A stretch of 64,000 nucleotides of DNA, taken from Liolophura sinensis (taxonomy: Eukaryota; Mollusca; Polyplacophora; Chitonida; Chitonidae). Within the stretch, counting starts at the first letter, position 1; each line of letters starts with the position of its first letter. The position numbers and the translations under genes were made by a program. The stretch is from NCBI RefSeq assembly GCF_032854445.1, contig NC_088295.1:3352501-3416500 (forward strand), in the 5' to 3' direction. The notes under the pieces were generated by a model that ran no database searches, was not told where the DNA came from, and worked only from the letters and a program-made list of their open reading frames with translations. This document shows positions 30,906-63,400 of the stretch, one piece after another.

Positions 30906-31439
30906 TGTCTGTGGGTTCATGATTTAGGATAACAATGTGTCCAGCATTGTCTGGGTACAGAATCTGATACTTGATTTCTTTATCTCCCTGGCCTGGCTGT
31001 ACAACCTGCTCCGCTAGCTGCAAGAGCGAGGATTCCAGTTGACCCTGGCTGGTCAATACGGTGTCAGCATTGGTGTCCGTGCTGTGCGTAATGATGATGT
31101 CCTGATGCTGACCTGCTACAGTCTCCTGGATGTGGTACTGAGTGTCCAGCTCCATACCTTCAGGGATCTCTATCTTTATCTGTACCAGTCCTTCCTCAGT
31201 CTCCTCCCCCTCCTCCTGCTGCTCCACCACACCTGAGGTAGCAGCCATTGTCTCCTCTACTGTCACTCCCATACTCTGTTCCCCTGGGCCCACTCGCTCT
31301 AACTGCTGCCGCATCTCTAGACCAGCATGGTTGAGCACATGAGCCCGGTACTCTGACTGAGTCGAACACACTCGGTCACATATCTTACACACCAGTGCCT
31401 CTTTTGCAGTGCAGACCTGTTTATGCCTGTCCAGGGAGA
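30892..31439 (-). CDS. Zinc-finger gene, terminal exon
   Basis: The acceptor is ttttgtcag. The exon completes finger 4 (histidine and last cysteine), encodes finger 5 (CKIC...H-x3-H) and a tail rich in Glu, Gln and Thr. The stop TAG is at 30,894-30,892. Its last 130 bp are the apparent source of the neighbouring 126-bp array. Confidence 0.88.
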
Positions 31440-34400
31440 CTGACAAAATAAAACACGCCATTTACTACATTCCTGGTGGTTATTTCAATGTACATGTACA
31501 CCTCTTTTAAGTAAGTCTATCTACATTTGTCAAATTACATTATTTCTGAAAATTTATTTACTTATGTCTGGCCTTTATCATTATAAATGTTTTTATATTT
31601 TTACACAAACACATATTCACAAACCCAGCTGAAAATATAAGTGAATGTCATCAGAAAACCAGAGAAATATAGCTTAGCATTTGCCTGGCTAGTGATGTCA
31701 GCTAGATCACATGTTGTAGTGTTGTGGTGATCACAGACAGCTTGGTCAGGACAAATGTTTAACGTCCATCATTTAAATATTTCTCTGATTGGTGTTTGAA
31801 TGTTGTACATAAGAATTTGTTTTATGCTGGTCATGTTTATAGATTAAGGAAACCGAAGTGTCCAGCTGACTGCTGAAAGGCCACAGTCAGAACAAGTCAA
31901 TGTTTTGCCTGTCTGAATCAGCACAAGGTCTCCACCATGCAAACAAGCAGGATTAAAGTAAAAAGAATACAGCACAGAAACCCACCTTGACATGTAAAAA
32001 TCTTGTGACAGGAGGGGCAAGCGCAGGACTTCTTATGAGCAGTTTGTTTGTGGCTCCTCAGTCGTACTTTTGACTTGAAGTCCTTCCCACAAACATCACA
32101 CAAATATCTGACAACAGATAAGAACAATACAGGTACAACATTCACCATCAGCCTCTCTGGTGGAAAGGTTTGGGAACGGGGAGGGGGGGGGGGGGGGGGG
32201 GGGCAGAGGAGTTTCACTATGTAATTACAGAGCACAGGTTTTCAAATGGAAATAAACAGCTGGAGTTTTTCATCAGCCAAATATGACATAACACAACAGC
32301 TGAGCCAGGATTTCATTTCATTTGTGAGGGGTAAAGAGTCAAGCTTAATATTTCACTTCACACGATGCCAGTCAGTCAGGATTATGGGTGGAGGAAACTC
32401 TGCAGAACCTGGAGAAAACGAGTACCGCATATTGTGTTCAATGAGACACAACTAACTGATCAAGTTTGATGAAAAGTTATGTCAGATATTCAAGTTACAG
32501 TCATTAGTGGTAGGCATATTAGGTATGCGAGTGACGATGGGTGTACCATTGGGGAAGCCCTACAACTAACTGATCAAGTTTGATGAACAGTTATGTCAGA
32601 TATTAAAGTTATAGTCATCAGTGGCAGACATATTAGGTGTGCGAGTGACAATGGGTGTACCATTGGGGAAGCACTACAACTAACTGATCAAGTTTGATGA
32701 ACAGTTATGTCAGATATTAAAGTTACAGTCATCAGTGGTAGACATATTAGGTACGCGAGTGATGATGGATGTACCATTGGGGAAGCCCTACAACTAACTG
32801 ATCAAGTTTGATGAACAGTTATGTCAGATATTCAAGTTACAGTCATCAGTGGTAGACATATTAGGTGTGCGAGTGACGATGGGTGTACAATTGGGGAAGC
32901 ACTACAACTAACTGATCAAGTTTTATGAACAGTTATGTCAGATATTAAAGTTACAGTCATCAGTGGTAGAAATATTAGGTATGCGAGTGACGATGGGTGT
33001 ACCATTGGGGAAGCCCTACAACTAACTGATCAAGTTTGATGAACAGTTATGTCAGATATTAAAGTTACAGTCATCAGTGGTAGAAATATTAGGTATGCGA
33101 GTGACGATGGGTGTACCATTGGGGAAGCCCTACAACTAACTGATCAAGTTTGATGAACAGTTATGTCAGATATTAAAGTTACAGTCATCAGTGGTAGACA
33201 TATTAGGTACGCGAGTGATGATGGATGTACCATTGGGGAAGCACTACAACTAACTGATCAAGTTTGATGAACAGTTATGTCAGATATTCAAGTTACAGTC
33301 ATCAGTGGTAGACATATTAGGTACGCGAGTGATGATGGATGTACCATTGGGGAAGCACTACAACTAAATGATCAAGTTTGATGAACAGTTATGTCAGATA
33401 TTCAAGTTACAGTCATCAGTGGTAGAAATATTAGGTATGCGAGTGACAATGGGTGTACCACTGGGGAAGCCCTACAACTAAATGATCAAGTTTGATGAAC
33501 AGTTATGTCAGATATTAAAGTTATAGTCATCAGTGGTAGAAATATTAGGTATGCGAGTGACGATGGGTGTACCATTGGGGAAGCACTACAACTAACTGAT
33601 CAAGTTTGATGAACAGTTATGTCAGATATTCAAGTTACAGTCATCAGTGGTAGGCATATTAGGTATGCGAGTGACGATGGGTGTACCATTGGGGAAGCCC
33701 TACAACTAACTGATCAAGTTTGATGAACAGTTATGTCAGATATTAAAGTTACAGTCATCAGTGGTAGGCATATTAGGTACGCGAGTGACGATGGGCGTAC
33801 CATTGGGAAAGCACTACAACTAACTGATCAAGTTTGATGAACAGTTATGTCAGATATTCAAGTTACAGTCATCAGTGGTAGGCATATTAGGTATGCGAGT
33901 GACGATGGGCGTACCATTGGGGAAGCACTACAACTAACTGATCAAGTTTGAGGAAGAGTTATGTCAGATATTAAAGTTAGTCATCAGTGGTAGACATATT
34001 AATTATGCGAGTGACGATGGGTGTACCATTGGGGAAGCCCTACAACTAACTGATCAAGTTTGAGGAAGAGTTATGTCAGATATTCAAGTTACAGTCATCA
34101 GTGGTAGACATATTAATTATGCGAGTGACGATGGGTGTACCACTGGGGACGCACTACAACTAACTGATCAAGTTTGATGAACAGTTATGTCAGATATTAA
34201 AGTTATAGTCATCAGTGGTAGACATATTAGGTACGCGAGTGATGATGGATGTACCACTGGGGAAGCACTACAACTAACTGATCAAGTTTGATGAACAGTT
34301 ATGTCAGATATTAAAGTTACAGTCATCAGTGGCAGACATATTAGGTGTGCGAGTGACGATGGATGTACCATTGGGGAAGCACTACAACTAACTGATCAAG

Positions 34401-37400: not shown

Positions 37401-37829
37401 CCCTCTAAACACCATGTCGCAGTGAGGACACTTGAACTTTCTGCAAACTTTTCCCTTTGTTTTGCCATCTGTTGTGGAATTCAGTGGCACCGAATCTGTC
37501 CCTGGGGTGTTTGTTTCACTCAGGGATGTGCACTGCTCACTGTTATTAGCACTGTCAGCAGCTTCAGCTACCTTCTCCCCAGCCAGTGCAAGCTCTACAG
37601 CAGCACTCAATGGCTCCAGTGAGGAAGACTTCAAGGGGAGTAACTCTCCCACCATATCTGACTGTTGGGCAGCTGCCACACCTGTTTGAATCTCCACTTC
37701 ATTACCAGCAATCTCACTCATGCTCTCTTGAATACCGTCATGGCTTGTGTCCATGGTGGTCTTGTGTGGTGACTGGATGCTGTATCTGTGATCTGACTGC
37801 ACATCTTCAATACTACCACTGGCAGCCAG
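30892..37829 (-). CDS. Five-zinc-finger protein, 4 exons (start unresolved)
   Basis: Exons on the minus strand are 37829-37385, 34897-34774, 32107-31986 and 31439-30892. All junctions are GT-AG and the phases (1, 2, 1) agree, giving 412 residues and a TAG stop. From the first visible codon, residues 1-133 are polar and acidic. Five fingers follow: C134-H154, C162-H182, C193-H214, a C2HC finger C220-C240, and C248-H268. A long acidic, Gln/Glu-rich tail resembles an activation region. The protein is probably a nuclear DNA-binding factor. The first exon begins in phase 0 without a start codon at its edge; an internal Met lies 26 residues in. Either an upstream exon exists, or these exons continue the integrase-derived gene (a weak donor gtcagt inside its last exon would fit in phase). 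No exact orthologue is recognised. Confidence 0.82.
31986..32107 (-). CDS. Zinc-finger gene, exon encoding finger 3 and start of finger 4
   Basis: Acceptor ttgtcag, donor gtgggt. It encodes YLCDVCGKDFKSKVRLRSHK, a canonical C2H2 finger with an H-x4-H end, then CPSC starting finger 4, which is interrupted by the intron. Confidence 0.88.
32183..32203. repeat. Run of about 21 G
   Basis: A homopolymer of G on the plus strand (C in the zinc-finger transcript) about 76 nt upstream of an exon acceptor. A run this long is prone to slippage and to assembly error. Confidence 0.9.
32447..34625. repeat. 114-bp minisatellite, about 19 copies
   Basis: The anchor ctacaactaactgatcaag recurs every 114 bp, with agttatgtcagatattaaag, cagtcatcagtggtagaca and gtgtaccattggggaagc between. 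It fills most of an intron of the zinc-finger gene. Copies vary at a few shared sites (gatgaacag/gaggaagag, aggtatgcg/aattatgcg), so variants have spread within the array. Confidence 0.95.
34774..34897 (-). CDS. Zinc-finger gene, exon with end of finger 1 and finger 2
   Basis: Acceptor gtttcag, donor gtgagt. It supplies the two histidines of finger 1, the classical linker HTGEKPF and a full finger 2 (CKVC, then H-x3-H). Confidence 0.9.
34945..36500. repeat. Composite minisatellite of 25-bp units
   Basis: The basic unit is about 25 bp (gggagtccatgtgaaacaca plus a tgata or tgtta spacer). Groups of these are separated by two longer recurring blocks: one contains cagacacaagagacatgtcc and taacctaaaaatacatgtt, the other aagtcatgaaccattatcac and caattacacctcacaacac. 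The array is therefore organised at two levels. It fills part of the intron between the first two zinc-finger exons. Confidence 0.92.
37385..37829 (-). CDS. Zinc-finger gene, first visible exon
   Basis: The acceptor reads attttgtag and the donor is an excellent gtgagt. It encodes a 133-residue acidic, Ser/Thr/Ala-rich region followed by the first half of finger 1 (FKCPHCDMVFRGSIKLQ). It starts in phase 0 at a Leu codon, so an upstream exon is required unless translation starts at the internal Met. Confidence 0.85.
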
Positions 37830-38299
37830 CTACAAAATACAGCATAACATTGTTTACAACACACAGTATAACATACAGCACATCATATACAACACAGAGT
37901 ATAACATATAGCTGTATGTTAACATACAACACACAGTATTACATATAGCTGTATGTTAACATACAACACACTATATGACTTGCAGTCATCACACAGCTGA
38001 GCTCTGAGATTGGCTGGCTATGTTTCTAGCTTAACTTCCACGTCAACCGCCCTGGATCTACTGTCACTAGCCTGGAACTATGTCCTACTGCCTGCTCTGT
38101 TCTCAAAGTCACAACGTTGCACACCACACAAAGAACTGTCCCGAAAGTAAAGTAATTCTGAATTCATATCACCACATTATGCTGGAATAATAAAGACCAT
38201 ATCAGTGCAAGTACAAGTGTAACCTATGCACCCACTCTGACAAATTCCAACCTTTGCCAATCGCTATCTTCCAATCACTTGACTCCATTGCTACGGTGG

Positions 38300-40404
38300 A
38301 CTCAGCTACTCATTCCAAAATTAGGATCATCTCCTTCTTTCACAATACAATTTTCTCTTTTCTCTTCATTATTAACTACTCATCCCAAAATTAGGATCAT
38401 CTCCTTCTTTCACAATACAATTTTCTCTTTTCTGTTCATTATTAACTACTCATCCCAAAATTAGGATCATCTCCTTCTTTCACAATACATTTTTCTCTTT
38501 TCTGTTCATTATTAACTACTCATCCCAAAATTAGGATCATCTCCTTCTTTCACAATACAATTTTCTCTTTTCTGTTCATTATTAACTACTCATACCAAAA
38601 TTAGGATCATCTCCTTCTTTCACAATACAATTTTCTCTTTTCTGTTCATATTAACTACTCATCCCAAAATTAGGATCATCTCCTTCTTTCACAATAAAAT
38701 TTTCTCTTTTCTGTTTATTATTAACTACTCATCCCAAAATTAGGATCATCTCCTTCTTTCACAATACAATTTTCTCTTTTCTGTTCATTATTAACTACTC
38801 ATACCAAAATTAGGATCATCTCCTTCTTTCACAATACAATTTTCTCTTTTCTGTTTATTATTAACTACTCATATCAAAATTAGGATCATCTCCTTCTTTC
38901 ACAATACAATTTTCTCTTTTCTGTTCATTATTAACTACTCATACCAAAATTAGGATCATCTCCTTCTTTCACAATACAATTTTCTCTTTTCTCTTCATTA
39001 TTAACTACTCATCCCAAAATTAGGATCATCTCCTTCTTTCACAATACAATTTTCTCTTTTCTGTTTATTATTAACTACTCATTCCAAAATTAGGATCATC
39101 TCCTTCTTTCACAATACAATTTTCTCTTTTCTCTTCATTATTAACTACTCATCCCAAAATTAGGATCATCTCCTTCTTTCACAATACAATTTTCTCTTTT
39201 CTGTTTATTATTAACTACTCATCCCAAAATTAGGATCATCTCCTTCTTTCACAATACAATTTTCTCTTTTCTGTTCATTATTAACTACTCATCCCAAAAT
39301 TAGGATCATCTCCTTCTTTCACAATACAATTTTCTCTTTTCTGTTTATTATTAACTACTCATCCCAAAATTAGGATCATCTCCTTCTTTCACAATACAAT
39401 TTTCTCTTTTCTGTTCATTATTAACTACTCGTACCAAAATTAGGATCATCTCCTTCTTTCACAATACAATTTTCTCTTTTCTGTTCATTATTAACTACTC
39501 GTACCAAAATTAGGATCATCTCCTTCTTTCACAATACAATTTTCTCTTTTCTGTTTATTATTAACTACTCATATCAAAATTAGGATCATCTCCTTCTTTC
39601 ACAATACAATTTTCTCTTTTCTGTTCATTATTAACTACTCATACCAAAATTAGGATCATCTCCTTCTTTCACAATACAATTTTCTCTTTTCTGTTCATTA
39701 TTAACTACTCATACCAAAATTAGGATCATCTCCTTCTTTCACAATACAATTTTCTCTTTTCTGTTCATTATTAACTACTCATCCCAAAATTAGGATCATC
39801 TCCTTCTTTCACAATACAATTTTCTCTTTTCTGTTCATTATTAACTACTCATCCCAAAATTAGGATCATCTCCTTCTTTCACAATACAATTTTCTCTTTT
39901 CTGTTCATTATTAACTACTCATACCAAAATTAGGATCATCTCCTTCTTTCACAATCCAATTTTCTCTTTTCTGTTTATTATTAACTACTCATACCAAAAT
40001 TAGGATCATCTCCTTCTTTCACAATGGAATTTTCTCTTTTCTGTTCATTATTAACTACTCATACCAAAATTAGGATCATCTCCTTCTTTCACAATAGATA
40101 TTTCTCTTTTCTGTTCATTATTAACTACTCATACCAAAATTAGGATCATCTCCTTCTTTCACAATACAATTTTTTCTTTTCTGTTAATTATTAACTACTC
40201 ATCCCAAAATTAGGATCATCTCCTTCTTTCACAATACAATTTTCTCTTTTCTGTTCATTATTAACTACTCATACCAAAATTAGGATCATCTCCTTCTTTC
40301 ACAATACATTTTTCTCTTTTCTGTTCATTATTAACTACTCATCCCAAAATTAGGATCATCTCCTTCTTTCACAACACAATTTTCTCTTTTCTGTTCATTA
40401 TTAA
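38300..40404. repeat. 70-bp minisatellite, about 30 very similar copies
   Basis: The unit runs ccaaaattaggatcatctcc, ttctttcacaatacaatttt, ctcttttctgttcatta, ttaactactcat. Copies differ mainly at three variable spots (atccc/atacc/atatc; gttc/gttt/cttc; the base after caata). Such uniformity suggests recent expansion. It lies between the integrase-derived exons and the zinc-finger exons. Confidence 0.96.
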
Positions 40405-40813
40405 CACCTAAATTAAGGTTAAGATTCCCAAAAAAATGTATCATTCGCCCTTTAGGTGGTGTACATCTCCTTGGTTCCAATCAAATCATTCCAGGAGTTA
40501 ATCCTTTTCTGGAGGATGCCGAATGCAACCAACTCAAATTGAAAATGATGGTTAGCAAAGTTTGGCTTGCTGCTGATGTAAGAGGTACATTTGTGTTAGG
40601 TTTACAGGAAACATGTTTTAGTAGCGTACAGCATTCATGTATGTTGAGGACAGCTCACACAAAACGGCTGAGTTCCAGCTTATTAAATGGAAGAGTACAG
40701 ATCTGTATTTGGAAGTACAAATATTCAGAGCAGCTGAAGTGGAAGAAAACTGGGAACATGGCCTATCGGTCCCATATTTAATCAGCTGTGTCTTTTACAA
40801 TAATTAACCTAAC

Positions 40814-40819
40814 TTTAAT
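40814..40819 (-). promoter_or_regulatory. Possible polyadenylation signal ATTAAA
   Basis: On the minus strand ATTAAA lies about 70 nt past the TAA stop of the integrase-derived gene. It supports the gene ending here, but such a hexamer is common in AT-rich DNA. Confidence 0.35.
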
Positions 40820-40890
40820 ATTCATGTAGAAGGTAATGTGACTTCTGAGAACATATCAGAGTATTTGTTTAACTGTAACCAAAAGTTCTA

Positions 40891-41258
40891 TTAATTCTCA
40901 GTGGTACTGAAATGTGTATTAAACAATGTACTGACATTTGCCTTGAATAGCCTGGCAAATCGTTCCTGCCTCTGTTCTTGGTCCACTCCTAACTTAATAC
41001 GCTTCTTTTGAGTAACTTCCTCTAGGGATGTGTCTGTCTCCAACTCTGCAGCAGAAATGGCTCGTGTTCGTGGACGCCCCTTTTTCACTGGTGTCACAGA
41101 AGCTCTTGTATGAGGGGCTGCTTCAGTTGTCTCCCCTGACGGAGGTGCAGTACAGATTTCACACCTCTGGATAAATCTGGCCACCTCATGCGCGATGTTA
41201 GGCCAGTAGTACTTCAGCGAGACACTGCTGTGGGTGTTACTTTTTGTTTTGTGTTCAC
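40891..41258 (-). CDS. Integrase-derived gene, exon 10 (H2C2 module 3 end, AT-hook)
   Basis: Acceptor ttgatcag. It encodes the second His, YYWPNIAHEV and C-x2-C of module 3, then a low-complexity Thr/Ala/Pro segment, the AT-hook core GRPR, a second basic patch (QKKRIK) and TAA. A weak internal donor (AAT/gtcagt) could instead join the zinc-finger exons in phase 0. Confidence 0.8.
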
Positions 41259-44200
41259 CTGATCAAAAAAATAGACTGCTTGGTGAAACTTTACTGGAAC
41301 ATACGCTTATCTTGAAAACAAACCTATACACTTTACTGCCACACATCTAAGTCAATATCCCAGCAGCTATGCTTTATCTTCAGCTACATATTACATTAAG
41401 ATTTCCTTACCATAAACAACATAATTACCATAATGATAAAAGGGCTACAACCATCTGCCACAATAACAGATGTAAACTTTCTATAAACAGCAGAACATGT
41501 TAGGTAACATTAACAGAACAATTTTGTGTTACATCACAGTGACTGGATTCTTGTAACATTTAGGAAATACTGATACAAACCCTAACCTGTAGTTTCAATT
41601 ATATGACACTCTCTGATGCACTTTTCTTTATCCTCAGGTGTAAAGATGACTTTTCGCATCAAGCGATTGCCAGATTTGTCCACATAATTAGTGTCTTTAT
41701 AATAAAGAATACCATCATCTCCCAAGGAATACATATTGCCTCTCGTCTTGAATGCAAGAGCCTTTTTGTTGGTGAGACCCTCAGGTAAGGTTTTGTTACA
41801 CAGGTACTCCATCAGTGACATGTAATCCTTAGTACAATCTGAATACCAGTCCTTAACACTACCACTCTCCTGAAAGAATACATGAAAAAATGGCCTGAGA
41901 GATTACCATTATAGTTTTACTTAAACTATACTTAACTACCTCAATATACACGTAATCTTCACAATTTATGATATCCCTCTCTTTACACCTGTGTGACCTA
42001 AACTATACTTAACTGCCTTACTATACATGTAATCTTCACAATTTGATATCCCTCTCTTTATACCTGTGTGACCTAAACTATACTTAACTGCCTTACTATA
42101 CACGTAATCTTCACAATTTGATATCCCTCTCTTTACACCTGTGTGACCTAAACTATACTTAACTGCCTTATTATACATGTAATCTTCACAATTTATGATA
42201 TCCTTCTCTTTACACCTGGGAGAGCTGTGCATGAACTTAGGTCAGTAGATCAGAGTAAAGGAACCTTGATATGATTGGGCTGAATTAGCTTGTTAACATA
42301 TTTAATATGCACAAAATCTGCTGAAGTTGCAATATCTCCCTTGTTGTTTGTCTGGCAATGTTGGTATACAGTGAGAGGTTAATTTCACCAGTAGGTCAAA
42401 ATAAAATGTCCTTAACACAATTTTAATTTAACTCCTTGTTAAAGTCAATAAAATATGTGTCAAATCTATACAATTTTACCTCCTTGGCTGCGTACTAAGT
42501 TTGACAATAATTGTGTGAGTGTCATGTTAACAGAAAAATCAATTGGTTATGAACACAAATTCTTGTCAAGGTTATTAATGTACATGTAAAATATGTTGAA
42601 TTTATAATGTTCCCTTCTCTGATGCTGTGTTGTCAAATGAGAACGACAATGATTTGTATAGTATATTGTAGTTAAGGCCTAATATAGCGAAACCTGAGCA
42701 CACCGCTGCAAGGAGGTATAGGAAAGGTGCCATATCCCCCTTAAACTACTAACATGTAAGAAGGTGTGTGTGGGATTGGAAGTGGGGGGGGGGAGAAATT
42801 GGGGAAGGGGGAGGATAAACCCTTTGTTTGTCTATAATTTCTGCCAGCTTGCATTTTATCACAAAATGAAGTGATGAAATATTGACAGCTTCTGGTGCGA
42901 CTAAGGGATTCACCGTAAACTAATAGCAGAGTAGAGGATTGCCACAAGTATCTCACCACACAAGAACTGTCCAAATAGGTTGTAGGGGTGCGCTTTTGTT
43001 TGGCTGCATTCTCTGCACATTGAGGGCAGGCACGAGCGAAGGCTTGAGTGTCCAGAGAGATGCCTTTCCAGTAGTAGTGTTCAGACACCTTGCTGTATGT
43101 GTCTCGTACATGTAAATGTCTGCCTGCAATTAGCAACAATCCCTCAGCAAAATTAAGATGAGCCCAGAGTAAATAGGGTGGATGAGACAAGAAGCAAACT
43201 GCTCGAGTCATGAAGCTGTGATAGTCAGACAAATAGTTACACCGCATCACAGATCCTAATTTACGACACGTTTAAATACAGAACAATCATATTGTAATTC
43301 ATTCATTTTCAATATATCTACCGGAACAAAGAAGGCAGGGCATGGTGGTGGAGAAAAAGACTCTCCCTTACCCTTTTATGTAACACATTCCCTACAGGAC
43401 ATTGAATACAATAACATATATCACAGATTCCAGCTTAGGCCTTGTGTAAAGTCTTATGGGTGAATACCTCGTAATTTTTACAACTGTCTTATTCTTGAGT
43501 ACAGCATAGAATACCACTTAAATATATAGATATAGTAACTGCAACCATCTAATGATCTGCATGAACTGTTGCCCACCTGAGCTGTCCACGTGACATTGCT
43601 GTAGCACCTTCCAGCGATCCTCATCATACAGGACAACCTCCTTCAGTATGCCTTTGCTGCCTTTGTAGTACAGCTTATCATCCAGAACCTGGAAGCAAGT
43701 TTTCACTTTGCGCATGCTCCTCTTCATACAGAGGCTGTAGTTTGGGGGATAGCCATGGCCTAGCAGATTGTTCTTCATCGCTTCATAAAAGTTGCCATAG
43801 TTGTTAACACTGCTGCCCGACTGACAATGGAATGACAGATAGTACACACATGATACAGATGTTAACATATACTGCTTTGTCATTATTATGGGGAAATAAC
43901 CCCCCCCCCCACCAAAAAAAAAAGAAAAAAAAAAAAAGATGCTAAAATTTGCAATATAAAAATAGAAATAAACCTCACATGATAAAACTACATTACAGCC
44001 ACAGGTCCACTTTTGGAAGACTTCACATATGAATGCCAACTATACAATAAAGTTTATGACATACTTTTCCCTACTGACAGTTTATACACAGAAGCTTGAT
44101 GCTGATGGGTTCCCGACGTACCTTTGTTCGCCTAAGTTTTCGGCCCTTGTCTGTGGCTGGGGTCAGAGGTGATGCAGGGGTCATGTCATCCTGCTTATCC

Positions 44201-47200
44201 TCCTGGGTGAGGGGGTCCCAGGTATTCTCCTCCCCATCCTCATCCACTGGCGAGGCCCCCTTACTGGCCTTCAGTGTGTTCAGGAAAATCTGTTTAATGT
44301 TCGCCATAGACTTGTTAATCTGGTTCTCTGTCAGGTGTAACTCCACATGATGCTGTGATGTCTGATGGTTGACACACACAGGCAGTCTCAGCTCCCTGTA
44401 CACACATAAAATATACCTTACACAAAAACACAACAACAGCCAAGAAACACACACCAGTGGTTAAACACATCACAACACAATGGACACACACATCACACCA
44501 CAATCGACACACACATAACACCACAATGGATACACACACCAGTGGTTAAACACATCACACCACAATGGACACACACATCACACCACAATGGCTATACACA
44601 TCACACCACACTAGACATACACATCACACACCAGTGATTAAACACATCACACTGCAATGGACACGCACATCACACTACAATGGACACGCACATCACACTA
44701 CAATGGACACACACATCACACCACAATGGACATGCACATCACACCACAATGGACACGCACATCACACCACAATGGACACACACATCACACCACAATGGAC
44801 ACACACATCACACCACAATGGGACACGCACATCACACCACAATGGACATGCACATCACACCACAATGGACACGCACATCACACTACAATGGACACCCACA
44901 TCACACTACAATGGACACACACATCACACTACAATGGACACCCACATCACACTACAATGGACACACACATCACACCACAATGGACACACACATCACACCA
45001 CAATGGACACACACATCACACTACAATGGACACACACATCACACCACAATGGACACACACATCACACCACAATGGACACACACATCACACTACAATGGAC
45101 ACACACATCACACCACAATGGACACACACATCACACTACAATGGACACACACATCACACCACAATGGACACACACATCACACAATACATCACACAACAAT
45201 AATCACATGCATCATACAACAGTGGACACATCACTTTCACCTTTTTGGGCACAAAGCTATTGCAGCAATCAGTGCAAAAGGTAGAATGTTACCAAGGTAG
45301 CCAAATTGCACCCCGCATTAGAAATTCTAAATCATGCTGAAACACATCAGACAGTCAACCATTGTAGCTCACCTAGTTAAGCACAAATAGGAAGGGGTGT
45401 AATCCAAGCCCTCTGCCCGTGATATTCTGTAAGGCAGCAGGCACAAGTCCATGTATCTGAACCATTCCGTGGGCATATTCACAACAAACTCCTCCACAGA
45501 CTTCCTCAGTTCTGTCCATCGGCTTTCTGAACAAGATGTCGGGTATATTAGAAAACAGTGGATGTACATTTCGTGTCACTAATATTTATAAAGCAAAATT
45601 TTGCACAGCATGTCACCATTTAGTGACTTTTTTTATACCTAGGCAGTGGCTTTTAAAGCATCTGCACACATAATATTTTTTTATAAACTTTCTGAAAGAA
45701 TAAATTTAAATCTTGATGCGAAATCTGTTGCACATTTGGTCACAAATGTTCACTGATAGAAAACAGGCCATCAAAAGCTACACATGTACAAACTTTCTTT
45801 GTTTCAGTATATGACACTATCATCTGCAATGTGTGCAATTGCCATGGAAGTAGCTCATCAGGTAAACGTTAGCACACATGGTAAACATTCCTGCTGCGTT
45901 CCCACACATGCTGGCATGCATGTTACCCTCCTGTTGTATTCTCACACATGCTGGCGTGCACGCTACCCTCCTGTTGTATTCTCACACATACTGGCATGCA
46001 CGCTACCCTCCTGTTGTATTCTCACACATGCTGGCATGCACGCTACCCTCCTGTTGTATTCCCACACATGCTGGCATGCATGCTACCTTCCTGTTGTATT
46101 GTCACACATGCTGGCATGCACGCTACCCTCCTGCTGTTGTATTCTCACACATGCTGGCGTGCACGCTACCCTCCTGTTGTATTGTCACACATGCTGGCAT
46201 GCACACTAGCCTCCTGTTGTACTGTCACACATGCTGGCGTGCACGCTACCCTCCTGTTGTATTCCCACACATGCTGGCATGCACGTTACCCTCCTGTTGC
46301 ATTCCCACATATGCTGGCATGCACGCTACCCTCCTGTTGTATTCTCACACATGCTGGTGTGCACGCTACCCTCCTGTTGTATTCTCACACATGCTGGCGT
46401 GCACGCTACCCTCCTGTTGTATTCTCACACATGCTGGCATGCACGCTACCCTCCTGTTGTATTCTCACACATGCTGGCATGCACGTTACCCTCCTGTTGC
46501 ATTCCCACACATGCTGGCATGCATGCTACCCTCCTGTTGTATTCTCACACATGCTGGCATGCACGCTACCCTCCTGTTGTATTCTCACACATGCTGGCAT
46601 GCACGCTACCCTCCTGTTGTATTCTCACACATGCTGGCATGCACGCTACCCTCCTGTTGTATTCTCACACATGCTGGCATGCACGCTACCCTCCTGTTGC
46701 ATTCCCACACATGCTGGCATGCACGCTACCCTCCTGTTGTATTCTCACACATGCTGGCGTGCACGCTACCCTCCTGTTGTATTCACACACATGCTGGCGT
46801 GCACGCTACCCTCCTGTTGTATTGTCACACATGCTGGCATGCACGCTAGCCTCCTGTTGTATTGTCACACATGCTGGCGTGCACGCTACCCCCCTTTGGT
46901 ATTCTCACATATGCTGGCTTGCACGCTACCCTCCTGTTGTATTCTCACACACGGTGGCATGCACGCTACCCTCCTGCTGCGTTCCCACACACGCTGGCGT
47001 GCACGCCACCCTCCTGTTGTATTCTCACACATGCTGGCATGCACACTACCCTCCTGTTGTATTCTCACACACGTTGGCATGCACGCTACCCTCCTGTTGT
47101 ATTCTCACACACGCTGGCATGCATGCTACCCTCCTGCTGCGTTCCCACACACGCTGGCGTACACGCTACCTTCCTGTTGTATTCCCACACACGCTGGCAT

Positions 47201-50200
47201 GCACGCTATCCTCTTGTTGTGTTCTCACACACGTTAACCTGTGTGCTACAAGTTCTTATCATCATGACTGATTTCCCCCACAACATGTAACTCACAGAGT
47301 CAAACATGTGCAGAAAATTGTTTTGAAACTTCCATCTGCTACACAGTTTTAATTAATTTTATCAACTGTCTGATTTCACATCCTTAAATTATTCCACATT
47401 TCTGCATGCACTTGTGTTAACAGACACACGATGAAATTATCTTGCTAATTGGAGGCATAATTCTGTAAGCTCCCTTTTTTTTTTTTTAATTTCCATTCAC
47501 TGGATAAACAGAATCTCCAACCCGTGACCCTGTGGTATCAAGTTTATTAAGCAAGAGTTAAAAACAGTTTAGTTTTTTTTTTAGCCTCCATCAACTCCAG
47601 CTTTTTAACTCATTTTTTTTTAACTAGTTGGAGATTCTCTATTTATTTATAAAATTTTCAGGTATTTTACTGAAACACTGAATCATGTATGGCCTTATGT
47701 CATTTGTTGGACTTGCCACAGTACCGTAAAGTTTATTAGGAGAAATGAAAGTACCGGTGCTCAGTTGCATGCTGACAGGGTACAAACTGTACACGGAGCC
47801 TAAACTAGACATTAAGAATTACCCAGGTACGACCACTCCCTAAACTTGACTTTGACAGGGCAGTCAACAGCCAGGAGCTCCCCAAACACACGCTTTAATC
47901 CTCGGCAGTATTTGCTTTGTTTGTACACAACTTCGGACATAACCCCAAACCTGAAAATGAAACACAGCAAGAATACAAAACATATGATGTTAACAACTTG
48001 CAAATGTTTTACAGTGTATTATATATGTATGACTATGAAGTCTTGGGATTGGCTTACGTATGATTTGTCAACATTCATGGAAAGGGGAGACAAGGGGGGG
48101 GGGGGGGGGGGGGATCATGGATTACTTTCAGTGCTATTATCAAAAATATGCTATATACACAATCTATACCTATTCAAACAAAAGAAATATAAAAGTCTGG
48201 AAGCTTGGGATATCACTGTTGTCAAATCACTTTGTTTTAACAGTAACAGTTATTGTGCTTAAAAAGCTTTGATCAAGATATGTGATAAAGATAAGCTTTA
48301 CTAACTTGGCTGACATGCCTTGACCTACAAAAATTGTTAAGGGGTTATAAGGTAGCTCTGTGGATTACAGCCTTGCTGGTAACACTGTTTTCCCCCTTTT
48401 TCAACTGTGGTATTTCCAACAAATTAACATTCATGAGCTCCTGAAAATCTCCTGAGGCAGCCCATACACATATGTGACAGCACAATGTTAATCTGTGTCA
48501 CTCAACCCCAACATGTTTTTTTTTTTTTTTTTGATTGGTGTTTTACGCCGTACTCAAGAATATTTCACTTATACGACGGCGGCCAGCATTATGGTGGGCG
48601 GAAACCGGGCAGAGCCCAGGGGAAACCCATGTCCATCCGCAGGTTGCTGACAGACCTTCCCACATACGGCCGGAGAGGAAGCCAGCATGAGCTGGACTTG
48701 AACTCACAGCGATCGCATTGGTGAGACTGCTGGGTCATTACGCTGTGCTAGCGCGCTAACCAACTGAGCCACGGAGGCCCCACCCCAACATGTAGAAGAT
48801 GCGTTAAAAGAAGACAAGGTTCCAGTGCTGACTCACCTGCAGATCAGTGTGAAGACAGCTGCGGTGAGAGTTGAGAGGTCTGTGTTCTCCACCACTACTG
48901 CTTCAGGCCAACCAGAGAATACATCCAGCAATAGAACCACATAGTTGTAGTGTTCAGAATCAGGGGATACAGGGAAAGGTCCAATGATCTCCAGTTCAAC
49001 CTGTCATGAAGAAAAGGATCATGTATAATCTTACAGGCAACGGCACCACTGATCTCCAGTTCAACCTGTCATGGAGAAAAGGATCATGTACAATTTTACA
49101 GGGAACAGCACCACTGATCTCCAGTTCAACCTGTCATGGAGAAAAGGATCATGTACAATTTTACAGGGAACAGCACCACTGATCTCCAGTTCAACCTGTC
49201 ATGGAGAAAAGGATCATGTACAATTTTACAGGGAACAGCACCAGTGATCTCCAGTTCAACCTGTCATGGAGAAAAGGATCATGTACAATTTTACAGGGAA
49301 CAGCACCAGTGATCTCCAGTTCAACCTGTCATGAAGAAAAGGATCATGTATAATCTTACAGGCAACGGCACCACTGATCTCCAGTTCAACCTGTCATGAA
49401 GAAAAGGATCATGTATAATCTGACAGGGAACAACCCATAGATCTTCAGTTCAACCTGTCATAGAGAAAAGGATCATGTACAATTTTACAGGGAACAACCC
49501 AAAGATCTTCAGTTCAACCCATCACAGAGAAAAGAATCATGTACAATCTTACAGGGAACTGCCCAATGATCTCCAGTTCAAAATGTCATGGAGAAAAGGA
49601 TCAAATACAATCCTACAGGGAACTGCCAAATGATCTCCAGTTCAAAATGTCATGAAGAAAAAGATCAAGTACAACCTTACACGGAATGGCCCTCAGATCT
49701 CCAGTTCAACATGTCATGAAGAAAAGGATCATGTACAATCTTACAGAAAACATTCCAAAGATCTCCAGTTCAACCCGCCACAGAGAAAAGGGTCAAGTAC
49801 AATCTTACAGGGAACAGCCTAAAGATCTTTAGTTCAATCCATGTGAGAGAAAAAGATCATGCACAACCTTACAAGGAACTGCCCACAGACCTCCAATTCA
49901 ACCTATCATGAAGAAAAGGATCATGTACAATCTTACAGGGAAGGGCCCAATGATCTCCAGTTCAAAATGTCATGGAGAAAAGGATCATGTATAATTTTCT
50001 TCAGTTCAATCTGTTATGAAGAAAAGGATCATGTACAATCTTACAGGGAACGGCCCAATGATCTCCAGTTCGACATGTCATGGAGAAAAGGATCAAGTAT
50101 AATTTTCTTCAGTTCAATCTGTTATGAAGAAAAGGATCATGTACAATCTGACAGGGAACGGCCCACAGATCTCTGTCCCATCTTGTACATGTGGACATAA

Positions 50201-52093
50201 TAATTTCAACAGGCATTCTGAATGTATTGCCAAATGTCCCCTACTGTTGGTGGTTTGGACCAGCAGAATAACAGCTACCATACATGTCAAAAATAAGACA
50301 AAACATTCATAATAGTTTTAATTATATGTGAGGAATCATTATGAAACAAATCTAGAAACCTGGACAGCTGGAGAAGTACAGGTACATGGATGGCATGTAA
50401 GATAATTAAAACTAAGAAAAAAGCGTCAGTAACATTCATACCACGTCCCAAAAGTGTTTTCCATCTGTATCCAAGTCGTTTTGCGTACAAAATATGTTCT
50501 CCATCATTTTATTCGAGTTCATGCGCTGTCCATTACCAACACTGCTCTGAGACCCCAAAAGAGCTGCATCTGTCGGGCTGGTGTTAACATCCTCATCACC
50601 AGAGTCCATGTTGTCGTCATCTCGCACCATCGCCCGTGTCATCGCACATGAATGACACATCTTCAGTATATTTCGGACATCACGGTGCATGCCTGTCCAA
50701 TAGTAGTCCTTGGATAGCTTCTTCAGTACCTTGACATATCCAAGGTGCACACCACCACCTGTAAACATTTTATCAGATCACAATTAGTAATCACACATCT
50801 GTTATAGTACATTATAATCAATTATTGTTTTCAGAACACCTTCAGTCGTGTGACGGCTTGCTTTTGGGACCAGGCAGCTGACAAACCTACCAAGACAAGA
50901 GCCAAATTTAAAATCAGTAACCTCATGTGCAATGGGCAAATGGATTTCTGTCTTACAGCAATACACTCCCATCCTAGTATCGCTACACGTAAACTGTACA
51001 CCAAACGCCTTGCTCAGCCCACAATAAAAATTTCACTTCAGATCTGTGTTCTTTCTGTTGAAAAGGGCAGAATATCTCTGCACTGTGAAGACCTTTTTTT
51101 TTTTTTTTTTTTGAATGTGGAAATTGCTTTCATGCGTAGGCCTAAGTGCATTGCGGCCATAGTCGAGTCGGCACATCAAATTCATCGTCGAATGGAAAAA
51201 AAGAACCTGTGCTGTTCATGTGATCTGTAGCAATCTACAAATAGCGTCTGAGAGTCGCTTATGAAACTTCCTATCTCTTTCCAACTGTCGAATTTGACGA
51301 GTCTATATGACAACAATAACATGTAAATGCGCCTTACGGGTAACAAGTGTTCGTATAATAGATCAGAGTGGACGCTTAAATGCCAGTACTTTTATTCTTG
51401 TTTCACTTTAGTCCTTTGAAAGATTTCGTCTCACAGCAGAGCAATATATATGGGTAAAATCTGCTGAATTGTACTGAAACAGAAAATCTCAATGATCATG
51501 GGCTTATGGTCTAAGGTCGATTGAGTATGCAGGCTACACAAGTCTTTTGAACCATGGTCATGTCTTCTAAGGTGAATGATATAATTTATAATTTAACTGT
51601 AACAAAAAATAACAAGAAAAAATGAAAAATAAATGTTATGGGAAGCAGCCTAATATGTTTCTATAAAATAATACACGTAACTTTCACATTACATTAGACG
51701 TAAATAAATGTTATGGTATTGATGTAGGCAATGTGCGAAACATCCCGGGTAAAATTAGACAAGGCCATTCAATCTTACGACCCATGTGAAAATTGTCCTA
51801 CATTATGTTCCTGGATACTCATTTAGTGATTGTTTAGCACCTGATTCGTTCATGTGAATGGTTGATACAATCTTGATCTTCCTTTCTTCTGATGGAATAG
51901 CTTCTCTTAACTTTGCGTTGCTTCTTTCCTCCTCCGACATTTGTTTCCAGCCCATACAATAATACAGGACGCCATCTTTAATGACAAAATTTTCTGTACG
52001 CTTTCGAAGCGTTCGCTTTTCAGATCCGTTAGTGTTCTTGGGATACTTCTGTTCATTGAGGTAGTCATACACCTGACTTAGGGTCGATGACAT
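40891..52093 (-). CDS. Domesticated integrase-derived protein (GIN1-like), 10 exons
   Basis: Exons: 52093-51841, 50758-50442, 49000-48837, 47950-47823, 45526-45373, 44395-44122, 43820-43577, 43123-42957, 41869-41587, 41258-40891. All introns are GT-AG and every phase agrees, giving 783 residues and TAA. The start ATG has A at -3. Integrase-type zinc-binding modules (H-H-C-C) are H80/H89/C119/C122, H507/H514/C544/C547 and H656/H664/C694/C697, each with the YYW signature. Residues 191-330 resemble an integrase core (GPFPVS, LLLDVFSGWPEA). Glu194 replaces the first catalytic Asp, and no TDNG-like second Asp is evident, so it is probably inactive. A basic cluster (RKLRRTK, 424-430) and an AT-hook (KKGRPRTR, 720-727) suggest a nuclear DNA-binding role. 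Vertebrate GIN1, from gypsy/Ginger-type integrases, has only one such module. No LTRs, gag or reverse transcriptase are present. Confidence 0.85.
41587..41869 (-). CDS. Integrase-derived gene, exon 9 (module 3 start)
   Basis: Acceptor ctttcag, donor gttagg. It encodes the leader of module 3 (GDDGILYYKD) and the first His in ECHIIETT. The donor splits the following Gly codon in phase 1, as in modules 1 and 2. Confidence 0.85.
41940..42220. repeat. 75-bp tandem repeat, nearly 4 copies
   Basis: The unit contains aactatacttaactgcctta, catgtaatcttcacaattt and tatccctctctttacacctg, inside intron 8 of the integrase-derived gene. Confidence 0.92.
42957..43123 (-). CDS. Integrase-derived gene, exon 8 (module 2 end)
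   Basis: Acceptor attgcag, donor gtgaga. It encodes RHLHVRDTYSKVSEHYYWKG and CPQC, completing the second H2C2 module. Confidence 0.86.
43577..43820 (-). CDS. Integrase-derived gene, exon 7 (module 2 start)
   Basis: Acceptor attgtcag, donor gtgggc. It encodes a leader with LDDKLYYKGSKG and the first His in QQCHVDSS, and ends in phase 1 inside a Gly codon. Confidence 0.86.
44122..44395 (-). CDS. Integrase-derived gene, exon 6 (linker)
   Basis: Acceptor gtgtacag, donor gtacgt. It encodes a linker without a recognised fold: a helical stretch (NKSMANIKQIFLNTLK), an acidic patch (VDEDGEENTWD), a Pro/Thr segment and the basic RKLRRTK. Confidence 0.82.
44460..45200. repeat. 23-bp CA-rich minisatellite, about 30 copies
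   Basis: The unit is acacatcacaccacaatgg plus acac, with gcac and cccac variants. It fills intron 5 of the integrase-derived gene. The plus strand stays open in several frames (up to 239 codons of His/Thr-rich peptide), which I consider an artefact. Confidence 0.95.
45373..45526 (-). CDS. Integrase-derived gene, exon 5 (core end)
   Basis: Acceptor cttgttcag, donor gtgagc. The residues match the C-terminal part of integrase cores: a helix (TELRKSVEEFV), then W-x5-LCLLPYRISR and YTPSYL, where the family has W..l..~yN..~h..tg.tPf. Confidence 0.82.
45890..47245. repeat. 40-bp minisatellite, about 34 copies
   Basis: The unit is ctcacacatgctggcatgca plus cgctaccctcctgttgtatt, in intron 4 of the integrase-derived gene. 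Copies vary at a CpG/TpG site (ggcatgca/ggcgtgca). Homogeneity falls off near 46,900, where cacacacg variants take over. Plus-strand open frames of 323-429 codons have no coding signature and oppose the host gene. Confidence 0.95.
47823..47950 (-). CDS. Integrase-derived gene, exon 4 (core middle, degenerate)
   Basis: Acceptor attttcag, donor gtaatt. It encodes FGVMSEVVYKQSKYCRGLKR and VFGELLAVDCPVKVKF. It aligns in position with the integrase segment that normally holds the second catalytic Asp (usually in a TDNGxxF motif), but here the sequence is YKQSKYC, without that Asp. Confidence 0.82.
48094..48113. repeat. Run of about 20 G in intron 3
   Basis: A homopolymeric G run on the plus strand about 145 nt upstream of exon 4 (C-run in the transcript). 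Similar shorter runs occur at 42,784 and, as C, at 43,901. Confidence 0.88.
48517..48781 (-). mobile_element. Full-length tRNA-derived SINE with target-site duplication
   Basis: Read on the minus strand it begins ggggcctccgtggctcagtt, with an A-box-like TGGCTCAGTTGG and a B-box-like GAGTTCAAGTCC, as in a tRNA head. A body of about 180 bp follows, ending at gtaaaacaccaatca and an A-run. The flanks carry the 12-bp duplication accccaacatgt (48,505-48,516 and 48,782-48,793). It lies in intron 3. The conserved body resembles mollusc SINEs of the kind grouped as MetaSINEs; that family name is from memory. Confidence 0.9.
48837..49000 (-). CDS. Integrase-derived gene, exon 3 (core start)
   Basis: Acceptor catgacag, donor gtgagt. 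It encodes VELEIIGPFPVS, then NYVVLLLDVFSGWPEAVVV, the two first strands of an integrase (rve) core. The residue at the first catalytic Asp position is Glu. The acceptor plus the first 35 or so bases are repeated in the upstream 65-bp array. Confidence 0.86.
49001..50175. repeat. 65-bp minisatellite, about 18 copies, carrying a splice-acceptor copy
   Basis: On the plus strand the unit runs gatctccagttcaacctgtc, atggagaaaaggatcatgta, caattttacagggaacagc. On the gene strand each unit reads ctccatgacag then gttgaactggagatca, which is exon 3's acceptor and first bases. Copies next to the exon are near-perfect; copies after about 49,430 are more diverged. Confidence 0.95.
50442..50758 (-). CDS. 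Integrase-derived gene, exon 2 (module 1 end)
   Basis: Acceptor tttacag, donor gtatga. It encodes GGVHLGYVKVLKKLSKDYYW and C-HS-C of the first H2C2 module, then an acidic, Asn/Ser-rich linker (DDDNMDSGDED) leading into the core (KHFWDV). Confidence 0.87.
51841..52093 (-). CDS. Integrase-derived gene, exon 1
   Basis: Starts with ATG in the context tcaagATGt and ends at donor gtgcta in phase 1. It encodes a short N-terminal helix, a basic stretch (SEKRTLRKRTENF), VIKDGVLYY as in GIN1 N-termini, and the first His of module 1 in TIHMNES. Confidence 0.84.
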
Positions 52094-54309
52094 CTTGAAG
52101 ATTACAATTTCAACTTGTGCTTAACATGGATATTTTCGAGTTACGAGTCAGCAAAATTTCACCCGCCAAAAGGATACCCAGCTAGAAAATGACCCCGGAA
52201 GTCAACGACCGCAATGAGTTGCACCAGTGAAGATCTTTCAAGGGGAAGTAACTCATATTCCAACAATCAGTAACTGTCGTTTCAGTCGGTTTTTATGCAG
52301 TCTTTAATATGACTACTGCCAGTTTTATGGCTGTATGAAACGGACAGAGCAAGTAGGAATTCATAGCACTTTACCTCACCAAATAGTCCAAGAACTGTCA
52401 TTCCAGTCCGCACCCATCTGGGCATTTATTTCGCCTCTGGCAGTGGTGACTAGACCTGTGGCCGACGCGAGTTCTAGTTACTATAATTATTTTCACAAGT
52501 TTTGATTTATTTATTTGATTGGTGTTTTACGTTGTACTCAAAAATGTTTACATACATACGACGACGGCTGGCATTATGGCGGGAGGACACAGGGCAGAGC
52601 CCGAGGGAAACCCACGACCATCTGAAGTTAAAGCAAGTTTTAAGAAACGATTTGACGAGAAGTCTTGGATGATATGGCTCTTACTAGCGATCTCGCCTCA
52701 GACCAAATTAATTTACCTGACATAAGTAGGCCTAAAATGGAGATCAATAAAGTAGGCGCAATTTTGTTGAATCAAAGCACAAGATATCCGCATGCTGGAT
52801 GCAAAAACCATAGTATTACAGTTCTAGGCAGGATGGTAGGAACCTGACACGCCTCACCATGACTGCACAGTGGGGCTGGCAGCGAGCTGGATGATAACAA
52901 AACTTCACTGAGGGCATTAAAATCCCTTAAATACTGGGGACTACATTCTTTACTCTGTCAAGTCATGCTGAACCACAGTTTTGGTTACAGAAAGCCATTA
53001 AATTTAATTTACAAGAAAGCAAGAAGAAATTCAACACACAGTTGCAAAGACAAAATTAGTTATCAGATAAAAAATTTATTGCACATTTGGAACAGTAACC
53101 GTATATGTGAGTGTATAAATAACTGTATTTACTATGAGCTATTTGCCATGTTATAGGTTTTGGCACCTTTGGCACACAACACAAAATCAAATAAATGATT
53201 ACACAGGATAACAAACCAATAGGCCTATGTATATATAACAATGCCACACTTGCCTCAAACATGTCAGAAGGACATGGAGGTTTCCTGTTCAGCAATGTAG
53301 GCCTACATGTACAAAATATGTTGTTTAAGCAGGCAGCTTTGGTGTTCAAGTGACATTTGGCGGATTCCAGTTAAAAATTGGTTGCCTCACTCATCCGGAT
53401 TTGAAATCGGATCTTTATGTCCATAGTCCAACTCTGCACCATCTGAGCTATTGGGTATTCCTCGTTTGTTACCGTTAGCATAAGCATCAGAAAACCAGTA
53501 CCGTTACCCCTTTCCATGGAAGCCAGGGAAGGCCATCATCATACCATCGTTCTGCCTTTTCATTTAAAACAAAGATAAACACGTTTCAATTTTCAGTATA
53601 GCGGATTAAAATTCATTACCCACTGGATTTATTTTTTCAAGCAAATTTGTTACTTGCAATGATTAGAAAATATCTATTAATGCTTTAAAGTTTCATATAT
53701 CTGCAGAAAATTTTTTAAAATCGGGACATAGTACATTGGTGGGGATTTTTTTTAGCCTGTGGTATTTGTTCAGAAAATTTGCCGTGTTGAAAAATATCAT
53801 TTTCCTTGAGTCCCTCAATAGATCAAGCTCTGCTGGTAATAAGTGTTTGAAGGCTATATAAACATAGGAATTTGTAGCTTTCTTTCAAGATAATGTAAAT
53901 TAACTTATTGGGTAGGTTTAAACTCATAAACCTCACATCATAAGAGCTTCATATAAGACCACATCAATAAAGCTAATATGCTAAAGAAATGCATAGTTTT
54001 ACAAGCCTGTACATGTGTGTCGCATACATACTAATTAAGGTAAATTGTAATAACCTTTATAAAAAATGTGTCCAACTTTATTCGCTAACACGGCCACTTC
54101 ATGAAACGAATGACTCTTGCCAAACAAGAGTGAAACCACTGTGTAAGTCAGTTACCACCTTTGGTTTCGGTGTCCAAGCTAGATGATCACCCAGTATTCG
54201 TCGTCTTTTGTTACCTCGCTCGCTTCACAACCTCTGTGACAAAGACCGCCTCGACTGGGTGAACATTTAGCTTGGACACTTCAACCTCTGGCGGTAAATG
54301 TAACATACA
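52094..54309. other. 5' flank of integrase-derived gene, then intergenic
   Basis: The first few hundred bases would contain the promoter and 5' UTR of the minus-strand gene; I see no clear TATA box. A truncated SINE lies at 52,503-52,622. The rest is AT-rich unique sequence without supported genes. Confidence 0.5.
52503..52622 (-). mobile_element. 5'-truncated SINE
   Basis: Matches the SINE 3' half: tttatttatttgattggtgt, ttacgttgtactcaaaaat, acgacggctggcattatgg and gaaacccacgaccatc. The tRNA-like head is absent. Confidence 0.83.
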
Positions 54310-55262
54310 GTTTTCCCTCTCAATAACTCCCTCCCAATTAAGGCCTGCTCTCATGCCAAACTCCCCCACAACCAGCTCTCAATAACACCCTCCCAATTCT
54401 GGCCCACTCTCATGCCACCCTCACACACAACCAGCTCTCAATAACACCCTCCCAATTCTGGCCCACTCTCATGCCACCCTCACTCACAACCAGCTCTCAA
54501 TAACACCCTCCCAATTCGGGCCCACTCTCATGCCACCCTCACTCACAACCAGCTCTCAATAACACCCTCCCAATTCTGGCCCACTGTCATGCCACCCTCA
54601 CACACAACCAGCTCTCAATAACACCCTCTCAATTCTGGCCCACTCTCATGCCACCCTCACTCACAACCAGCTCTCAATAACACTCTCCCAATTCTGGCCC
54701 ACTCTCATGCCACCCTCACTCACAACCAGCTCTCAATAACACCCTCCCAATTCTGGCCCACTGTCATGCCACCCTCACTCACAACCAGCTCTCAACAACA
54801 CTCTCCCAATTCTGGCCCACTCTCATGCCACCCTCACTCACAACCAGCTCTCAATAACACCCTCCCAATTCTGGCCCACTGTCATGCCACCCTCACTCAC
54901 AACCAGCTCTCAATAACACCCTCCCAATTCTGGCCCACTCTCATGCCACCCTCACACACAACCAGCTCTCAATAACATTCTCCCAATTCTGGCCACTCTC
55001 ATGCCACCCTCACTCACAACCAGCTCTCAATAACACTCTCCCAATTCTGGCCCACTCTCATGCCACCTTCACTCACAACCAGCTCTCAATAACACCCTCC
55101 CAATTCTGGCCCACTCTCATGCCCCCCTCACTCACAACCAGTTCTCAATAACACCCTCCCAATTCTGGCCCACTCTCATGCCACCCTCACTCACAACCAG
55201 CTCTCAATAACACCCTCCCAATTCTGGCCCACTCTCATGCCACCCTCACTCACAACCAGCTC
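54310..55262. repeat. 59-bp minisatellite, about 16 copies
   Basis: The unit is ctctcaataacaccctccca, attctggcccactctcatgc, caccctcactcacaaccag. It lies between the 5' flank of the integrase-derived gene and the 3' end of WDR13. Confidence 0.95.
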
Positions 55263-56049
55263 AATGTACTGAAATCTCCACTATTATACCTCATAGAGTG
55301 ATTTTTAATTTTCATTGGTCAGTACACTGTTACATGATATTCCGCAAAGCATGACATGACGATGATGCTCTCAAGCAAAGTAACATCAGCCTTCTAGAGT
55401 ACAATGGAATATCCCAAGTTCATTATGTAATATCCAACATTCTTGAGCTTTTACTCTACTGCAGTTATTTCCACTGTGTGCTCTTTGACATCTGCTTGTT
55501 TGTAAAGTAAACAACAGAATAGCTTGCTCCTCTGATAAGGCAATATTTTAGCAATTTAATGAACCAACTGAGCACGCACACTTATTTTTCAGTATTATAT
55601 AACATACAGTTCATGCTATCAGGAATTGTCAGCTCTCCACCAGTGATGTTGAACTCGGCCTTCACTGAACATCATGTCTCTCAAGTCGACAATCCCATCC
55701 CAAAGCATGCACTATAAGTATACTGACACATATTACATCACGATTCTTCTAGCAGCTTAAGTTAGGCTCTGTTATCAGCAACTCAGTGGCCTGACACTGA
55801 AATCCCTCAAGTTTTATCACGACTGTTCAGTTCAGCTATAATCGCTCATTATGAATTCACAAGAAGAAAGGTGGCGTTGTTCCCAAAGCTGGCATTATGA
55901 TGAGGGCAAAGTACTGACTTTCCTTTGCTTCCAGAAAGACGTTGCTGCCAGCAGCTCTCTGTACATGTACCTACATGCAGACATCTTTACACCGAGTATC
56001 ACAAAAGTGGAATGAAGTTCTCCTCCCACATATCTCGCTCCGCATCCTA
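55263..56049 (-). other. Probable 3' UTR and downstream flank of WDR13
   Basis: Unique sequence directly after the WDR13 stop. An ATTAAA on the minus strand near 55,553 could be its polyadenylation signal. No other gene is visible. Confidence 0.4.

Positions 56050-63400
<7,351 letters not shown>

Follow-up and report, generated by a model that had tools for sequence, protein, structure and literature searches.

What kind of gene lies at positions 52093 to 40891 on the minus strand of a 64-kb stretch of the genome of the chiton Liolophura sinensis, and which part of the integrase from which it appears to descend has been retained? This stretch is the window in which all coordinates below are given. 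A first-pass annotation of the DNA had described ten in-phase GT-AG exons of an integrase-derived gene at 40891-52093 without stating the strand, and on the minus strand these exons were confirmed as one frame: ten predicted exons and nine GT-AG introns of compatible phase read as 2,352 nucleotides (nt) encoding 783 residues, from a start ATG at 52093 to a stop that ends at 40891. Judged from the sequence, the locus is very probably a chiton host gene, found once, that derives from the integrase or transposase of a Gypsy/Ginger1-type element. Its integrase ancestry, as proposed earlier, is borne out by PF17921 matches, by fold matches to the integrases of prototype foamy virus (PFV) and Ty3, and by a full-length alignment of the core. 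Domesticated integrase genes are a known kind; what is new here is the presence of three modules per chain, each made of an extension domain and a His-His-Cys-Cys (HHCC) domain, as follows.

50628..52093, minus strand: module 1 (residues 1-128), extension domain plus HHCC; phase-1 intron at Gly85; PF17921 score 50.6 bits
42999..43820, minus strand: module 2 (residues 431-553), extension domain plus HHCC; phase-1 intron at Gly512; PF17921 score 52.3 bits
41134..41869, minus strand: module 3 (residues 568-703), extension domain plus HHCC; phase-1 intron at Gly662; PF17921 score 39.7 bits

We compared the whole protein with Pfam and found PF17921 (Integrase_H2C2) in three stretches (E = 1.3e-35) and PF09337 likewise in three stretches. 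When the modules were searched singly, all three exceeded the PF17921 cut-off of 25.5 bits, which upholds the earlier count of three H-H-C-C modules. The motif H-x5-9-H-x20-32-CxxC occurred three or more times in none of 2,000 shuffled versions of the protein. The four zinc ligands are retained in every module, with the spacing Hx8/6/7H-x29-Cx2C for modules 1, 2 and 3, respectively; relative to the canonical spacing quoted as HX3-7H(X23-32)CX2C (PMC5384227), the first spacer of module 1 is one residue longer. Each module is opened by a YPYY region and closed by the HHCC domain. The motif YP...YY is whole in modules 1 and 2, and module 3 retains three of its four residues (LP...YY). PMC2836005 defines for Ginger1 a YPYY motif that precedes the zinc domain, and gives it for some Gypsy integrases as well.

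We predicted the fold of module 2 with AlphaFold, using an alignment of the three modules only, and obtained a model with a mean predicted local distance difference test score (pLDDT) of 86.2. With this model as the Foldseek query, the eight best rows were all PFV or Ty3 integrase (E 2.0e-4 to 5.7e-3; template modelling scores of 0.51-0.58 on the query). VIA-align matched the model to residues 9-105 of PFV integrase (Z 9.9, 95 residues, 3.1 Å) and to Ty3 integrase (Z 9.4, 110 residues, 4.7 Å), and the top non-integrase row had a Z of 4.6. A profile of the three modules, compared with PDB sequences, likewise returned PFV and Ty3 integrases only, at about 3e-6, in a search extending up to E 10. 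Since the module 2 model matches the extension domain and HHCC domain of these integrases, the repeated unit is, on the predicted fold, larger than a zinc finger and comprises both domains. The multiplied zinc-binding module of the first-pass annotation accordingly stands as a triplication, whereas its unit is not the zinc finger alone. PFV and Ty3 integrases, whose chains have a single module each, are active DDE enzymes, and the chiton protein resembles them in that an extension domain and an HHCC domain are followed, in the same order, by a core (for the core, the likeness is to PFV, by sequence).

The region between modules 1 and 2 and the C-terminal tail contain the following features.

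44377..49000, minus strand: integrase (rve) core (residues 191-345), full length and catalytically degraded, as drawn from alignments
50589..50621, minus strand: acidic linker 1 (residues 131-141), read from the sequence
44182-44247, minus strand: acidic linker 2 (residues 389-410), read from the sequence, within exon 6
41068..41085, minus strand: AT-hook-like motif KKGRPR (residues 720-725), a string match only

The core spans exons 3-6, and its residues 191-345 align with a local element (L001) and residues 189-345 with PFV integrase. When residues 1-385 were compared with PDB, foamy-virus integrase chains matched residues 189-345 together with the zinc region (best E 8.6e-6). The remnant of a split integrase core described earlier is thus split as claimed and is not short, being diverged over its full length. 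In alignment with L001 and the integrase chains 2x78 and 2x6n, the first catalytic Asp corresponds to Glu194 and the second to Lys255, and Glu288 is retained at the third position; the protein therefore lacks the Asp-Asp-Glu (DDE) triad of active integrases and transposases, two of the three acids having been replaced. An active transposase was ruled out by this loss together with the fact that no second copy was found. Of the remaining earlier claims, the single acidic linker turned out to be two, and the AT-hook was retained as a string only, no AT-hook being listed by Pfam for the protein. The tail contains two basic strings, KKGRPR and KKRIKL.

The ten exons on which this reading is built are distributed as follows.

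51841..52093, minus strand: exon 1, start ATG and first half of module 1 (extension domain, YP...YY and first His)
50442..50758, minus strand: exon 2, second half of module 1 (His89, Cys119, Cys122) and acidic linker 1
48837..49000, minus strand: exon 3, start of the integrase core, with Glu194 in place of the first catalytic Asp
47823..47950, minus strand: exon 4, integrase core, with Lys255 in place of the second catalytic Asp
45373..45526, minus strand: exon 5, integrase core, with Glu288 retained at the third catalytic position
44122..44395, minus strand: exon 6, end of the core and acidic linker 2 (44182-44247)
43577..43820, minus strand: exon 7, first half of module 2
42957..43123, minus strand: exon 8, second half of module 2
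41587..41869, minus strand: exon 9, first half of module 3
40891..41258, minus strand: exon 10, second half of module 3, basic tail with the AT-hook-like string, and stop

None of the ten exons contains a stop in the coding frame, and both alternative frames are stopped in nine of them; in exon 8, one of the two alternative frames is likewise open. We scored the splice sites with a simple consensus whose weights we set ourselves. The donors of the nine introns ranked at the 84th-100th percentile among the 964 GT dinucleotides in the span, and their acceptors at the 89th-99th percentile among the 727 AG dinucleotides. The lowest-scoring donors were those of introns 1 and 4 (85th and 84th percentile), and the lowest-scoring acceptors those of introns 7 and 1 (89th and 90th percentile). 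No DNA similarity was found between introns at the settings used for the comparison. In intron 2, a minisatellite at 48968-50173 copies the 3΄ splice site of exon 3 together with its first ~16 nt; 16 near-copies were counted, including the real site (at most 5 substitutions), and because several of these keep CAG/GTTGAAC, exon 3 is preceded by an array of decoy acceptors. An interspersed repeat at 48530-48780 in intron 3 resembles the tRNA-derived short interspersed nuclear elements of molluscs.

The same splice evidence bears on the possibility that two adjacent genes have been joined, in which exons 1-6 would encode a GIN-like protein with one module and a dead core, and exons 7-10 a two-module protein whose start ATG would precede exon 7. 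When exon 7 is extended in the upstream direction, its frame indeed stays free of stops over much of intron 6, and an ATG occurs there (open reading frame 43518-44039). However, the donor of exon 6 (AAG/GTACGT) ranks at the 100th percentile and the acceptor of exon 7 at the 96th, the phases match, and intron 6 amounts to just 301 nt, with neither AATAAA nor ATTAAA found on its coding strand. Such strings do occur elsewhere, with AATAAA in introns 1 and 4, two copies of ATTAAA in intron 8, and two further copies of ATTAAA beyond the stop, at 72 and 109 nt. We therefore regard a pair of genes as quite unlikely and treat the locus as one gene.

We examined the alternatives to a host gene by searching the genome (632 contigs, 609,464,459 bases; all match counts are lower bounds, and some stretches were not available) with the protein. 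Of the at least 56 matches obtained, 10 fall within the gene, and the other 46, at different places in the genome, have 21-38% identity. The gene is thus single-copy as found, which is not proof that it is so, and neither a close paralogue nor a local donor was present among the at least 46 other matches. The genome is rich in integrase-bearing elements: a first pass with PF17921 picked out 928 candidates, and 150 of them were scored and listed. Ginger1 termini consist of inverted repeats of 40-270 bp with a CCGG-type target duplication; in a search for inverted repeats alone, none of the 10 pairs found in 37500-55500 flanked the gene with its two arms. No C-terminal OTU or Ulp1 protease, a Ginger1 feature, was found, Pfam having returned PF17921, PF09337 and a sub-threshold rve only, and no GPY/F motif was recognised between the core and module 2 by eye, without a profile. 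Ginger1-like neighbours were also rejected: at least 6 Peptidase_C48 and at least 12 OTU matches exist in the genome, and on common contigs the nearest of them lie more than 1 Mb away, in a by-eye comparison with the 56 match places of the gene. Pattern searches for relatives confirmed none of 212 matches in viral contigs and none of 11 in contigs of bacteria and archaea, both collections being uninformative for this gene. An intact frame, single-copy as found and without mobility signals, fits a domesticated host gene.

A decaying transposable element or pseudogene, intact in appearance only, would agree with the loss of catalytic residues from the core and with the tandem repeats held by several introns. 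However, the 2,352 nt contain neither stop nor frameshift and are joined by nine good splice pairs, though the other genome matches are at most 38% identical, and module 2 is confidently folded in prediction. In a simulation of neutral drift without indels, the frame escaped stops in 0.4% of the 2,000 runs at 0.05 substitutions per site and in none of 2,000 runs at 0.1. This makes an intact frame unlikely even at modest divergence, and is the sole evidence of selection, of an indirect kind. A decaying element was ruled out by the intact frame, the splice sites and this simulation, and we consider it highly improbable.

Given a single host gene, we asked how it came to hold three modules. The alignment scores of the three module pairs (126, 92 and 119) were compared with those of 1,000 shuffles each, for which the maxima were 56, 59 and 58. 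Introns 1, 7 and 9 split Gly85, Gly512 and Gly662, respectively, after the first base (phase 1), at an equivalent site between the two His. This correspondence of the glycines is kept in the pairwise alignments of modules 1-2 and 2-3, and the multiple alignment offsets module 1 by one residue. In addition, module 2 is encoded by an exon pair running from phase 0 to phase 0, and the end of exon 2 and the start of exon 9 are also in phase 0. The common phase-1 glycine intron and the phase-0 borders favour duplication of a two-exon cassette, by which the modules probably arose. The history would likely have begun with the gain of an intron, or its inheritance from an intron-bearing Ginger1 element, after which a two-exon cassette (phase 0-1-0; extension domain plus HHCC) would likely have been duplicated twice behind the core.

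Several results weigh against this account of a domesticated integrase gene with duplicated modules. The modules score as high as 124 (module 1 with L001), 119 (module 2 with L017) and 118 (module 3 with L007) against local elements, compared with 126 (modules 1 and 2), 119 (modules 2 and 3) and 92 among themselves, and elements of the L005-L008 type reach 114-118 with module 3. A tree was built from the three modules and 13 element rows, the latter taken from 13 of 17 fetched loci, which were themselves part of the 46 other genome matches (L002, L003, L014 and L015 were dropped because they had no module in an open frame of at least 100 residues). It groups the three modules, with weak support (63/86) and long branches. 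The core is weakly recognisable: of the two domains for which the first-pass annotation had suggested a hidden Markov model search, H2C2 was obtained in three stretches, and rve fell short of its cut-off (13.1 as compared with 32.6 bits; E 0.12). Searched alone, the core gave a best PDB match at E 0.022, and the sequence of module 2 alone gave no match to PDB sequences at E 1. Predicted from its sequence alone, the full-length protein gave a model of no use (pLDDT 32.7). It is splice signals only that join exon 6 to exon 7 and exon 8 to exon 9. As Pfam listed no Ginger1 protease and no GPY/F motif was recognised by eye, the donor element is not singled out, and the function proposed below is read by analogy only.

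The element scores and the tree would also suit exon shuffling, in which the extra modules were captured from independent element insertions and not duplicated within the gene. Ginger1 genes can carry introns (PMC2836005), so the intron common to the modules might have been inherited from such elements. Nevertheless, one intron position and phase is common to all three modules, and the best tree groups them together. On this evidence capture appears unlikely, and duplication of the cassette within the gene is preferred.

We compared the chiton gene with integrase-derived host genes in the literature. GIN1, which the first-pass annotation had cited as domesticated from a gypsy/Ginger-type integrase, is Ginger1-derived in print (PMC2836005), and three introns of the GIN1/GIN2 genes are given there as matching Ginger1-5_HM in both position and phase. 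Like the chiton gene, vertebrate GIN1 and GIN2 are multi-exon host genes of integrase origin with an HHCC domain and an integrase core, and GIN2 is reported to keep the DDE triad incompletely (PMC3424704). However, GIN1 and GIN2 have one HHCC finger as described, whereas the chiton gene has three modules and ten exons; GIN2 has eight coding exons and sits between OGFOD2 and ABCB9 in vertebrates (PMC3424704), whereas the neighbours in the chiton window are a C2H2-like frame and a WD40 gene. Imagin of malacostracan crustaceans is likewise integrase-derived and single-copy, combining YPYY and H2C2 with a DDE-dead core, but is described with one H2C2, 585 residues and three exons, one of them in the untranslated region, and lies inside an MMUT intron in P. 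japonicus (PMC12863088). The N-terminal HHCC finger of ZBTB11 is integrase-like, has the identical x29-Cx2C spacing, which is also reported for GIN1 and NYNRIN, and has a reported role in transcriptional repression (PMC5384227). ZBTB11 differs in having a single HHCC domain, and BTB and C2H2 fingers where the chiton gene has an integrase core.

Thus GIN1, GIN2, Imagin and ZBTB11 have a single HHCC module each in their published descriptions. Among the matches listed in the open-access literature, as judged by titles and the beginnings of abstracts, none was a protein with more than one integrase HHCC module; this is not proof of absence, and agrees with the earlier statement that no protein of this architecture was known. 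The chiton gene would add a mollusc case to a mostly vertebrate record. A zinc module that is kept and multiplied while the catalytic site decays would isolate the part of the integrase valued by the host, namely its DNA- or partner-binding front end. The gene also opens the question of whether isolated host HHCC modules bind DNA and whether valency counts.

As for function, the protein would no longer cut or join DNA and may, in a tentative reading to which we give somewhat less than even confidence, be a catalytically dead, multivalent scaffold that binds nucleic acid or oligomerises. The zinc modules would adopt the fold seen in foamy-virus or Ty3 integrase, each of them binding DNA (or chromatin or RNA) or associating with other subunits. 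The dead core would serve as a structural platform and the acidic linkers as spacers, and the basic KKGRPR tail would provide an additional nucleic-acid contact. Published relatives disagree on function. The HHCC residues of ZBTB11 are reported to be needed for repression; all four are reported to be required for zebrafish rescue and Cys116 for TP53 repression, and ZBTB11 lacking the whole N terminus is reported still to rescue (PMC5384227). Imagin, by contrast, integrase-derived and DDE-dead as well, is described as cytosolic in oocytes (PMC12863088), and by its example the chiton protein might be a component of cytoplasmic RNA or storage granules and not of chromatin. The basic strings of the tail would suit a nuclear protein instead, and a cytoplasmic role seems doubtful, if less so than the other alternatives weighed here. 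It is conceivable but improbable that the tripled unit is a one-chain version, lacking the cutting activity, of the half of the intasome that grips DNA ends, acting as a decoy at the ends of resident Gypsy-type elements or at integrase-like targets and thereby blocking or silencing them.

The surroundings of the gene are repetitive, tandem arrays (Tandem Repeats Finder, merged by hand) occupying ~25.5 kb of the window. An array of a 126-bp unit at 24592-30979 (~50 copies, 97% matches) reaches into a minus-strand open frame at 30892-31461 and covers its final ~88 nt, giving the impression that the array took up an exon end; this frame has a weak C2H2 match (21.5 bits, below the cut-off of 25.2). 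Exons of a WD40 gene, possibly WDR13, lie at 58624-59759 on the minus strand (38.4 bits). Elsewhere in the genome, eight PF17921 matches, all scoring 84.6 bits, were found at C2:25876469-26011176, spaced ~11.4 kb apart within each run; five lie on one strand and, after a 66-kb gap, three on the opposite strand, a series that resembles tandem copies of a single integrase element in an inverted array.

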